From Candidatus Hydrothermarchaeum profundi (GTDB lineage: Archaea > Hydrothermarchaeota > Hydrothermarchaeia > Hydrothermarchaeales > Hydrothermarchaeaceae): a stretch of 64,000 bases of DNA. Below are positions 25,867 to 28,905 of this stretch, one piece after another. Each line of letters begins with the position of its first letter. Position 1 is the stretch's first letter. The stretch spans positions 1 through 64,000 of the forward strand of contig MTMF02000009.1 in NCBI GenBank assembly GCA_002011125.2, written 5' to 3'. The position numbers were made by a program, and so were the translations under genes. The notes beneath the pieces were generated by a model that saw only the letters and a program-made list of their open reading frames with translations, searched no databases and was not told the origin of the DNA.

Positions 25867-26091
25867 TTGTCCAAAAAAATCTTAGGGAGTAATAAAGACT
25901 GCAAATATTATCCTTGTCACTTCGAAGGCCAAGACTGTACCTGGTGTTTTTGCCCTATATATCCTTGTTACAATCTTAAGAGAGGAGGAAAGCTGATCAA
26001 AAGCAGGCAAGCAAATAAAATACTCTGGAGTTGCAAATATTGTGGCTGGATACACCGGCCAGAAATTGCTAAAAAATTTTTACGGAGATGA
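25867..26091 (+). CDS. Cysteine-rich small-domain protein (COG2158 type)
   Basis: A 74-residue protein with eight or more Cys arranged as in the archaeal Cys-rich small-domain family: CKYYPCHFEGQDCTWCFCPI, then YPC, then CKYCGWIHRPEIAKKFL. The pattern suggests bound zinc or another metal. It is transcribed divergently from nikR. The start is a TTG at 25867 with GAGAGGTT a few bases upstream. The function of the family is unknown, but its position among nickel and corrinoid genes is suggestive. It overlaps the convergent regulator gene by 12 bases. Confidence 0.75.
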   Translation: MSKKILGSNKDCKYYPCHFEGQDCTWCFCPIYPCYNLKRGGKLIKSRQANKILWSCKYCGWIHRPEIAKKFLRR

Positions 26092-26475
26092 AAAAGGCTT
26101 ACCATAAAATTCTTCGAATCTCTTTTTATTTTCATCGGTTAAGTGGAGGAGTGTTCTAGGTCTCCCCCTCTTACCATTTCTTACGGGCTTTTCTGAAATA
26201 AGCCCCACTGAAATTAAGTACTGTTTCCTATCAGATAAAGTAGAGCTTTTAGCAAGGTTTTTCTCTTCCGCCCATTTTACTATTTCATAAAAAGTTTTGT
26301 TATTCTTAGCCCCACTAATCAGAATGCGAGACTCTAAATCCATTGCTTTTCTAATGAGAATTTGATATCTAGTTTCATTAAATAACTCGCTTAACATTAC
26401 AAAATCTACAATAAAATCCTCATCGAAATACCCCTTCATTGTAGATATTATTTCTTCGATTTCTTTGGAATTCAT
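26080..26475 (-). CDS. Winged-helix transcriptional regulator
   Basis: A 131-residue protein whose C-terminal half has a winged helix: YEIVKWAEEKNLAKSSTLSD as HTH and LISVGLISEKPVRNGKRGRP plus RTLLHLT as the wing, a GRPR-type wing common in archaeal regulators. The N-terminal half (VDFVMLSELFNETRYQILIR) is helical and probably dimerises. Its target is unknown; it lies between the Cys-rich gene and the small peptide gene. ATG at 26475. Confidence 0.6.
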   Translation of the reverse strand: MNSKEIEEIISTMKGYFDEDFIVDFVMLSELFNETRYQILIRKAMDLESRILISGAKNNKTFYEIVKWAEEKNLAKSSTLSDRKQYLISVGLISEKPVRNGKRGRPRTLLHLTDENKKRFEEFYGKPFSSP

Positions 26476-26699
26476 TATTCCGAAATTGGCTTGTTGGTTT
26501 ATAAATTTTTTTATTTAAGTACACAGTTAATTAATTCATTATTCAAATCTTAAAATAAAAAAATAGTTGTTTTATGTAATAAAGCTTTTTAATTTTTATT
26601 TTAAAATATAAAGATTAATTTTTTGATTTAAAATTAAAAAAAATTGTCTATTTATTTTAGACGGAATTGCCGGAATTAATATAGTACACTCTCTAAAAC
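26476..26699. other. Very AT-rich intergenic stretch upstream of the peptide gene
   Basis: More than 200 bases made almost entirely of A and T, with a short inverted repeat GTCTA...TAGAC at about 26646-26662 and a TATA-like TTAATATAG near 26675-26683. It has no credible coding frame. It must hold the promoter of the regulator (minus) and of the peptide gene (plus). Confidence 0.45.
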
Positions 26700-26724
26700 C
26701 GCCTCCGTAAAAATCACGGAGGTG
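26700..26724 (+). promoter_or_regulatory. Hairpin that buries the Shine-Dalgarno of the peptide gene
   Basis: CCTCCGT at 26702-26708 and ACGGAGG at 26716-26722 are perfectly complementary around a 7-base loop, and a G-U and a C-G pair can extend the stem to 9. The 3' arm contains most of GGAGGTG (26718-26724), the Shine-Dalgarno seven bases before the TTG at 26732. In RNA the ribosome site would be closed, so translation could depend on temperature, a protein or another RNA. Confidence 0.6.
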
Positions 26725-26731
26725 AAACCTA

Positions 26732-26842
26732 TTGCTGAATAAGATCCTATCAACCCCCATACTGCCTTTAGCGGTCTTCATAACACTATTAGTAATAACA
26801 AGCACTGTATCCGCAGGTGGAGGTTCGTCAGTGGGGCCATAA
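26732..26842 (+). CDS. 36-residue signal-peptide-like peptide precursor
   Basis: A short frame with an excellent ribosome site (GGAGGTG, spacing 7, TTG start). The product has a basic N-terminus (MLNKIL), a hydrophobic core of about 18 residues (PILPLAVFITLLVITS), an Ala-type cleavage motif TVSA, and a C-terminal tail GGGSSVGP. Cleavage after SA would release only eight residues; without cleavage it would be a single-span membrane peptide. The gene has its own hairpin over the ribosome site and a strong hairpin terminator that begins inside its last codons. It faces the CHAT protease gene 17 bases away. I know of no described family with this sequence. It could be a secreted signal, a protease substrate, or a membrane-acting toxin. 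Confidence 0.65.
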   Translation: MLNKILSTPILPLAVFITLLVITSTVSAGGGSSVGP

Positions 26843-26853
26843 ATTATGGCCCC
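26833..26853. terminator. Bidirectional hairpin terminator between peptide and CHAT genes
   Basis: GGGGCCATAA and TTATGGCCCC (26833-26842 and 26844-26853) are a perfect 10-base inverted repeat around one base, in practice an 8-pair stem with a 5-base loop. T-rich sequence follows on the plus side. It overlaps the stop codon of the peptide gene and ends seven bases from the stop of the convergent CHAT gene, so it can serve both transcripts. Confidence 0.7.
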
Positions 26854-26859
26854 ATTCCT

Positions 26860-28905
26860 TTATTTTAATAAAATATCCGCTAGCTCCTCCATCCAATAAA
26901 GCCTATTTCCATATATTACAGGTTGGTAAGGCTCCCTTTCAATCAACTTTGTGATCGTATTTCTGGATATTTCAAAAGTAGGTGTATTAAAATGCAGGTA
27001 GTTCATATCGCATCCCTCTATGTAAGGATGAATAAATCCGCCTATTGTATAATATAGAGTATGGAAAGTAAGAAACATCTTTTCCCTTTTCTTTGATAAT
27101 GTATAATAAATTGGAACAAAAGAATCTCTAAATTGGACTAAAGAATATTCGCTTAATCCTAATATTAAATAATCCTTCCCAAATAGCGATCTTTTTTTAG
27201 CGAGTTCCATAGCTTTTCCAATTGGAAACCCATTCTCAAGAAGTCTTGAAAAACAATATCCCATTTTAATAGCTTCTCTATTCATTATGCTCCACTGTGT
27301 TACAACGCCTCCCAATGAACCACTTTTTAGGAGTCCCACACCCTCATTATAGCTATTACATGCATTAAGGAAAAATAAAGGCGTATTATTCTCTACCAGC
27401 TCTTCAGTTTTAAGGCCCCCATCGACACATACTAGTCCATTTTCTTGGCAATGACCTACGTAATAAACAAGGTCAAATCCTTTTTCGAATACACTAGCAA
27501 GTTCTTCTCTGGATAATAGGTTGAAGATTTTAACCTTCATTTTTATATCATTTCTTTCGCTATACAAGTTTGCCGCCTTTTCTATTTCTTTAGACATTTT
27601 CTTGGCATTGAGCACTAAGGCAATTCTAATTTTATCTTCCTTCTTGTCGAGATATTTCAACTGGTTATAAAATGCCTCCCTACTTGCTTTAGAAACCCCT
27701 ATAGGTATCTCTGGAGCGTACCATATGTGTTCTTGAGAGCATTTGAGTGCAGGTTTCACAATATTTTTTTCATCAAAAATCTGGAAAACACTTTTAGATC
27801 TGAAGAAGTCTTTAATAGAAGCCTTAGTCAATTCTCTCCTAGAAATTCTCTTGCATCTTGGTATTCTTACCATGCCTAGACGGTTTAGAATAAAAGGTAA
27901 TGCCTCAACTCTAGGTAGTTCAGGTTTCACATAATAGGAAAGATGCCATTCAGGCATATAGCGTTCTATTTTCTCCCTTGGGATATTGAAGTATATAGGA
28001 AGCTGTTCAGTAATTCTCTTAGAGAAAATAGCTTTAATATCGAGTCCAAGTCCATCTAAGGCCTTCAATTCCTCTACTTTATTAACATATCCTCCCGCAC
28101 ATCTTACAAGACAGTCCATAAAGAATACCCGCTGCAGTACATTAGATACCTCGTCCTCAAATCTGCTTAAGCTCAGAGGCATTCGATATTCAAATCCGCT
28201 ATCACAATAAAGACTGGGACTCCCAAATTCTATATCAGCAAGCAGGTAGTATACTAAAGGTGCTGCAACATATAGGTAGCCCAACTTCTTAGGTATAGTG
28301 ATTGAAACACCGCTCTTCTTCTCCCTAATATCCCCAGATACAGAGAATTCGTCTTCTATTTTTAGTAATGGGGGATGCTCTCTTAATGTGGGATAACTTC
28401 TCTCGCATGTGTCGATACATATGGAAGAGGAAAGTAGTTTTATTGCTCTCGCTGCATCATCAATAGACTTAGAGATATTTATTAGTCCTATTGGACTCTT
28501 ATGGAAAGATCGTAACCCAAAAATTATATCGGTTCCTTCTTCAAATTTCAAGTATATACGGCTGTGCGTAGCTACTACTTTTATCCATGAATTTACAAAA
28601 ACATATACTTTTACAGGGGCATTTATTTCAAGTATATAATTCCCTTTTTTTAAATATAAGTTATCATGCGGGGTAATCTCCCTTATAATTTCGTAATTCT
28701 TTTCTTTCCTGAGATAGGTCAAATAAAGGTTAAAAGACAAAGCGCTACATTTTCCAGTAAAAATCTCATCCACTCTGTATCTAAATACATATTTTCGACT
28801 AGTACTCGTCCATTTAGTAAGATGAAGCTTGAAAATACTCCCCTGAGCGCTATCAAAGATTTCTAAGGCTTCTTTTTTATACTTGATATCAAATCCCATA
28901 CTCAT
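26860..28905 (-). CDS. CHAT-domain (caspase/separase-fold) protease
   Basis: A 681-residue protein whose C-terminal part is a CHAT peptidase of clan CD. The catalytic His is His485 in LVYYVGHCQENG and the nucleophile is Cys516 in LFFLNACNSYNEG; both are intact and 31 residues apart, as usual, with GVVTQWSI and FGKDYLILG following as in the family. The N-terminal 470 residues have no TPR or WD repeats that I can see. They contain beta-rich stretches (residues 1-130) and a Cys-containing middle region, possibly the recognition part. There is no signal peptide. It is convergent with the 36-residue peptide gene and divergent from cobQ (95 bases). CHAT proteases usually act on partner proteins encoded nearby, so the peptide is the obvious candidate. 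Confidence 0.85.
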   Translation of the reverse strand: MSMGFDIKYKKEALEIFDSAQGSIFKLHLTKWTSTSRKYVFRYRVDEIFTGKCSALSFNLYLTYLRKEKNYEIIREITPHDNLYLKKGNYILEINAPVKVYVFVNSWIKVVATHSRIYLKFEEGTDIIFGLRSFHKSPIGLINISKSIDDAARAIKLLSSSICIDTCERSYPTLREHPPLLKIEDEFSVSGDIREKKSGVSITIPKKLGYLYVAAPLVYYLLADIEFGSPSLYCDSGFEYRMPLSLSRFEDEVSNVLQRVFFMDCLVRCAGGYVNKVEELKALDGLGLDIKAIFSKRITEQLPIYFNIPREKIERYMPEWHLSYYVKPELPRVEALPFILNRLGMVRIPRCKRISRRELTKASIKDFFRSKSVFQIFDEKNIVKPALKCSQEHIWYAPEIPIGVSKASREAFYNQLKYLDKKEDKIRIALVLNAKKMSKEIEKAANLYSERNDIKMKVKIFNLLSREELASVFEKGFDLVYYVGHCQENGLVCVDGGLKTEELVENNTPLFFLNACNSYNEGVGLLKSGSLGGVVTQWSIMNREAIKMGYCFSRLLENGFPIGKAMELAKKRSLFGKDYLILGLSEYSLVQFRDSFVPIYYTLSKKREKMFLTFHTLYYTIGGFIHPYIEGCDMNYLHFNTPTFEISRNTITKLIEREPYQPVIYGNRLYWMEELADILLK

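Follow-up and report, generated by a model that had tools for sequence, protein, structure and literature searches.

A predicted CHAT-family protease occurs beside a short convergent gene for a Gly-Pro-ended peptide in archaea

Results

A 36-residue peptide gene adjoins a CHAT-family protease gene

The window (the whole 64,000-nucleotide stretch of DNA that was analysed) carries on its + strand, at 26732..26842, a peptide gene of 36 aa with a TTG start, a hydrophobic core and an AGGGSSVGP tail ending in Gly-Pro (translation, MLNKILSTPILPLAVFITLLVITSTVSAGGGSSVGP). The TTG start is preceded, at a distance of 7 nt, by a GGAGGTG ribosome site, and a TATA-like box, TTAATATA (26677..26684, + strand), was read by eye upstream of the gene, from the sequence alone. 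On the - strand, at 26860..28905, is the gene of a CHAT-family cysteine protease of 681 aa with His485 and Cys516 as predicted catalytic residues. The two ORFs are convergent, with a gap of 17 nt. These data confirmed the description given in the sequence-only reading, namely a small gene having a ribosome site, a hydrophobic core and an AGGGSSVGP tail, convergent with a CHAT gene 17 bases away. The peptide gene is the sole Gly-Pro-ended ORF among the 482 of its size class (24–90 codons) in the window, and a ribosome-site-like motif was observed in just 13 of these 482. The third gene of the cassette, at 26080..26475 on the - strand, encodes a TbsP-type helix-turn-helix (HTH) regulator of 131 aa (PF23336, 54.8 bits), which comprises the C-terminal HTH part only. 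The immediate neighbours of the CHAT gene in the window are a cobalamin synthesis gene, this HTH gene, NikR and NicO.

Two hairpins were predicted around the peptide gene, in the window only. The 5' hairpin (26700..26724, + strand, 9 bp) base-pairs with the gene's ribosome site; its energy is −15.4 kcal/mol (z −4.3), and none of 200 shuffled sequences was equally stable. It hides the ribosome site and is a possible translational switch. A terminator-like hairpin (26832..26854, + strand) covers the Gly-Pro-stop codons, and the folded stretch there reaches −25.2 kcal/mol (z −4.4). The two genes had been proposed to share a terminator; a hairpin does span the Gly-Pro-stop codons, but the T-rich run that follows it is confined to the + strand side, which leaves this proposal only partly supported.

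Pfam and NCBIfam scans gave no family-model match for the window peptide, which also fails the cut-off of PF24335 (DUF7503) in the Pfam scan. As it has neither a family match nor a close relative, its membership in the pair described below rests on its place, its Gly-Pro ending and the neighbouring regulator.

The window protein is predicted to be an intact clan CD cysteine protease

The Pfam CHAT match of the window protease is under the cut-off (E 0.011, 15.6 bits); Pfam returned only weak protease matches and detected no TPR domain, and a sequence search of solved structures found no relative. The structure model (mean pLDDT 88.8) consists of a protease fold and unassigned domains, and the closest solved folds upon fold comparison are separase, SAVED-CHAT and gingipain R. 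His485 and Cys516 are conserved in 70 of 70 aligned relatives. The caspase-like fold of the model and the conservation of this dyad support the view that the protein is an intact clan CD cysteine protease, its proteolytic activity being inferred. The earlier claim of a CHAT protease with both catalytic residues intact was thus borne out despite the low Pfam score. The most conserved stretch outside the catalytic domain is ERSYPTLREHPP, residues 165–180 of the window protein.

The protease family is found mainly in haloarchaea

We found no relative of the protease in 60 related archaeal genomes, in a profile search of 296 archaeal genomes, in a single-sequence search of genome contigs with the window protease, or among viral contigs. 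A tblastn search against plasmids matched 25 haloarchaeal records, mostly with end-to-end coverage, and an alignment-based search of genome contigs yielded 385 loci, 80 of which were kept for analysis. Full-length haloarchaeal relatives are 24–35% identical to the window protease. In a wider draw from the haloarchaeal phylum, the family was present in 76 of 394 genomes, mostly with two matches each (genomes of 2.4–4.4 Mb); about two copies per haloarchaeal genome are usual, and Haladaptatus halobius has about 12 intact and 3 broken copies. The tree of the loci shows two haloarchaeal clades, A (50 loci) and B (30 loci), the latter taking in plasmid copies. Distant relatives (L142–L145) were seen in four genomes of lower G+C from the haloarchaeal phylum. 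They have SHPxFR-like motifs in place of the conserved motif, one of them (L142) is without the catalytic dyad, and the Gly-Pro peptide was not found in their flanks.

Relatives of the protease have a convergent Gly-Pro-ended ORF at the same place

To count as a peptide gene, an ORF had to comprise 24–90 codons, run opposite to the protease gene, lie no more than 600 nt 3' of the protease stop and end exactly in Gly-Pro. Under these limits, 72 of the 80 relatives have such an ORF. The same 3' stretch read on the protease strand gave 2 Gly-Pro-ended ORFs over the 80 loci, and the 5' control stretch gave none (0/318); Fisher's test for the convergent 3' enrichment gave 1e-36. Looser limits added three loci, one with a sequence gap (L055), one with an overlap (L066) and one with a long repeat ORF (L093), making 75/80. 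The distance between ORF and protease stop ranges from −22 to 461 nt. Three loci (L076, L083 and L095) have a DUF7503-like peptide with another ending, and no peptide was found beside the protease at L032 and L058. About eight of the loci read are exceptions without the Gly-Pro ending, and most of these belong to one clade.

A second sample consisted of 40 further loci, picked with their flanks unseen from the matches of the wider draw, plus six fetched earlier. Here the Gly-Pro peptide was present at 30 of 33 proteases counted as intact, that is, with the His-Cys dyad intact and the 3' DNA present. The pairing also holds when approached from the peptide side: of the 18 DUF7503 peptides in seven whole genomes, 17 have a CHAT copy within 200 nt and the remaining one within 3 kb. 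(DUF7503-like test peptides served solely to locate the PF24335 accession.) At one clade B locus (L006, 3001–7871) the DUF7503 peptide is about 2.7 kb from the protease with other genes between, a broken-up pair.

The sequence-only reading would have been refuted if relatives of the CHAT protein lacked a similar small frame at this place. This comparison was run on both samples and did not refute it; its suggestion that the peptide is the probable partner of the protease is supported by the same counts. As judged from these genome comparisons, the CHAT protease and the small convergent peptide gene are inherited together. Because an intact protease is nearly always the neighbour of a Gly-Pro-ended peptide gene, the two very probably work together, although this is an inference from gene order.

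Selection acts on the C-terminal end of the peptide

Between them, the 72 tails use every one of the four Gly codons, the four Pro codons and the three stops. This free codon use argues for selection on the residues, and it bears out the earlier expectation that the frame would be conserved at the codon level. The body of the peptide varies: it is of a membrane type (Pfam DUF7503), soluble with an ending '...STYGGP', or made of 13 tandem copies of '[YFSV]TADGNSGGISGP'. The peptides of a 31-locus Natrialbaceae clade are mostly soluble and end in ...STYGGP or similar, and others have a YTGP end on short soluble stems. In the soluble class, position-by-position identity is high nowhere but at the C-terminal end; in the other classes it is restricted to the final two residues.

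The tandem copies were observed in Haloplanus ruber (L093), where 12 of 13 positions of the repeat keep the same residue while the pairwise synonymous differences sum to 435. Two tail units are present in a related Haloplanus (L089). With identity confined to the C-terminal end, and with tail units repeated in tandem without replacement at 12 of 13 positions, the Gly-Pro-ended tail is likely the functional unit of the peptide. Several clades are without a hydrophobic core, and for this reason we rejected the idea that the membrane segment is what is conserved. The hydrophobic core and tail singled out earlier are therefore both real features of the window peptide, but across relatives it is the C-terminal Gly-Pro and not the core that is kept. 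On the sequences compared, a free C-terminal Gly-Pro on exchangeable N-terminal parts is the sole near-universal feature of the peptide.

The peptide tracks the catalytic site

Only 1 of 12 paralogues that have lost the dyad has a Gly-Pro-ended ORF, and that one resembles a chance antisense frame (30/33 active versus 1/12 dead, Fisher 4e-7). The dead paralogues retain the N-terminal domain, which indicates that the peptide tracks catalysis and not this domain. However, they look like one clade, and the losses of peptide and of catalysis were possibly a single event. At least five copies (L032, L058, L154, L173 and L193) have an intact dyad and no detected peptide.

One clade of six loci without the Gly-Pro ending has lost Gly490, an otherwise invariant residue five positions from His485. 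Two other lineages without the ending (L011 and L076) keep Gly490. A covariation of the active site with the peptide end may be indicated, but it rests on one event and can be taken only as a lead.

Haloarchaeal paralogues L146–L149, L152, L153 and L174–L179 keep the N-terminal domain and the ERSWPTLRGYPP motif and have lost the catalytic His and Cys. These are likely pseudo-proteases with a retained non-catalytic role.

The three-gene cassette resembles that of clade A

A full TbsP gene lies 3' of the protease, on the protease strand, in all 50 clade A loci. The TbsP-type HTH gene of the window matches this place and orientation, giving the same three-gene order. Upstream of the protease, glyA is present in 48 of the 50 clade A loci and DUF7504 in 18 of the 30 clade B loci. 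DUF7504 (PF24336), a family without known function, is the gene just 5' of many clade B proteases (e.g. L085, L086, L082, L089, L072 and L010), and at L007 and L016 a gene with a HalOD1 domain takes its place.

The branch of the window protease is long and lies next to clade A; the tree program cautions that long branches come together at this point. Neither the protease nor the HTH gene was found in 22 genomes of the phylum of the window, whereas the adjacent cobQ has strong matches in about 20 of these 22, and the region upstream of cobQ in four relatives bears no trace of protease or HTH. The module was therefore either acquired whole or lost from every relative sampled.

Discussion

CHAT proteases act at points where immunity and cell death are decided; to our knowledge their natural partners are mostly unknown. 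The above results provide a predicted partner for an uncharacterised protease family with about two copies per haloarchaeal genome, and a near-invariant mark, the free Gly-Pro end, that can be synthesised and tested directly.

On balance, we consider it somewhat probable that the two genes form a dedicated protease–peptide pair, in which the Gly-Pro tail is the functional unit and the protease recognises it in or close to its active site; there is no direct evidence for binding, cleavage or release. Beyond this recognition step, which is itself inferred, we are less sure: the peptide would be the protease's own substrate, the active product released from it would have about 7 to 12 residues with a Gly-Pro end (GGGSSVGP in the window), and this product would have the role of a signal or an effector. 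Control of the pair would probably lie with the TbsP-type regulator, and the 5' hairpin, as a predicted structure, would probably limit translation of the peptide. Several points count against such a pair: the dead paralogues may stem from a single event, two lineages without the ending keep Gly490, and the window peptide has no family match or close relative. In addition, the soluble peptides are without an export signal, and by the positive-inside rule the tail of the membrane type would be outside, away from a cytoplasmic protease. The membrane and soluble topologies do not yet fit one picture of the site of action of the tail. More tentatively, and with real doubt, the protease and its Gly-Pro oligopeptide may constitute an archaeal system of peptide signalling, or of peptide-controlled cell fate, which would be very common among haloarchaea and would have reached an unrelated archaeal phylum as a cassette together with the TbsP-type regulator.

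The peptide could instead be an inhibitor or antitoxin, its Gly-Pro end filling the protease cleft like a product and keeping the enzyme off until the labile peptide is gone, as in toxin–antitoxin systems. We regard this as unlikely, though it deserves to be kept in mind. Product-like binding would fit the fixed free C-terminus; the pairs occur on plasmids and in many paralogues, with some copies degenerate; and dead proteases, which need no inhibitor, have no peptide beside them. However, the 13 strictly conserved tandem units with internal Gly-Pro suggest processing and not a single plug, toxin–antitoxin pairs seldom have separate convergent promoters, and at least five intact-dyad copies have no detected peptide.

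That the tail is secreted as a pheromone and the CHAT protein is its intracellular receptor, in an archaeal analogue of Rap–Phr, seems to us improbable. No TPR or HTH domain was detected in the partner, which is a protease, and the system is not RRNPP; the soluble peptides have no export signals, and the peptide follows the catalytic site even though dead paralogues retain the N-terminal domain. This reading nevertheless accommodates a small gene adjoining that of its partner, a conserved C-terminal end, paralogues diversified on plasmids, an Ala of the signal-peptidase-like kind ahead of the window tail (VSA/GGGSSVGP), and tandem repeats, which are reported for the signals in Phr precursors (PMC5199041).

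A near-invariant Gly-Pro at the stop, a signal-peptide-like N-terminus in the membrane types and hairpins flanking the gene are what one would look for in a signal that reports on secretion or release by stalling the ribosome. SecM and TnaC are such translation-arrest peptides. We give this possibility little weight: in the convergent layout there is no downstream gene on the same transcript to regulate, the ending is common to the soluble types, the repeat ORF of L093 has 13 internal Gly-Pro units, and upstream arrest residues are not conserved across the classes.

Bacterial gasdermins are known to have CHAT proteases as partners, and the peptide may be imagined as a pore in the membrane, switched on or destroyed by the protease, i.e. 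a very small gasdermin-like effector. The hydrophobic core of the window peptide and of the DUF7503 class would suit this role. Since pairing and tail both persist in clades whose peptides are soluble, the membrane part is dispensable, and we think a pore very improbable. Finally, although the Gly-Pro codons of the window fall inside the hairpin, we rejected the notion that they merely result from a bidirectional terminator rich in G+C and that the peptide has no function, because synonymous variation is free and all three stops are used while the frame is strict with the ORF end, the distance to the protease stop is far from fixed, tails such as STYGGP are conserved, and the repeats are under purifying selection.

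Comparison with known systems

The features that define the group, a convergent Gly-Pro-ended ORF of 24–90 codons within 600 nt 3' of the protease and the TbsP-type regulator of clade A, are both met by the window. We compared the dedicated pair with the systems closest to it. DUF7503 (PF24335) comprises haloarchaeal small proteins of unknown function that have the same type of core, a Gly-Pro C-terminus and the same convergent place beside the same protease family; the window peptide, however, does not match this model, and the Gly-Pro pairing extends to peptides outside DUF7503. A search of PADLOC-DB for known defence systems, made with the window protease, with two haloarchaeal relatives and with a DUF7504 protein, found no family up to E = 1. 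The literature searched, which left most subscription journals and all preprints outside its scope, has no mention of DUF7503, DUF7504 or PF24335. Within the same scope we found no description of a system with these parts, in line with what the sequence-only reading had supposed.

Separase and gingipain R (clan CD) are among the closest solved folds of the protease domain, but identity is about 10–13% and the companion domains differ. SAVED-CHAT (PDB 8tl0) has a related protease fold, while the family scan found no SAVED domain here. The bacterial gasdermin systems are defined by a gasdermin-fold partner of about 250 aa, which a partner of 36 aa does not meet. Csx29 (TPR-CHAT), which acts with Csx30 in type III-E CRISPR, is a CHAT protease whose dedicated partner is encoded close to it (PMC10028731). 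It resembles the window protease in fold and in this arrangement, but the partner here is a peptide of 36–50 aa, and Pfam detected no TPR domain. Neither a Cas7-11 nor a CRISPR gene was recognised next to the protease, and an Rfam scan of the window, without a dedicated search for CRISPR arrays, was empty.

With Rap–Phr and the other RRNPP systems the pair shares a small gene beside its partner, a functional C-terminal end, tandem repeats and diversified paralogues. The genes are in tandem there and convergent here, a protease replaces the TPR receptor (often with an HTH) that RRNPP membership calls for, and the two are not homologous. If the tail is a signal, this would be archaeal peptide signalling based on a protease and not on a TPR receptor. 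A protease with a dedicated partner is thus known already as a general idea; this partner, its ending and its distribution are, with respect to the literature searched, new.
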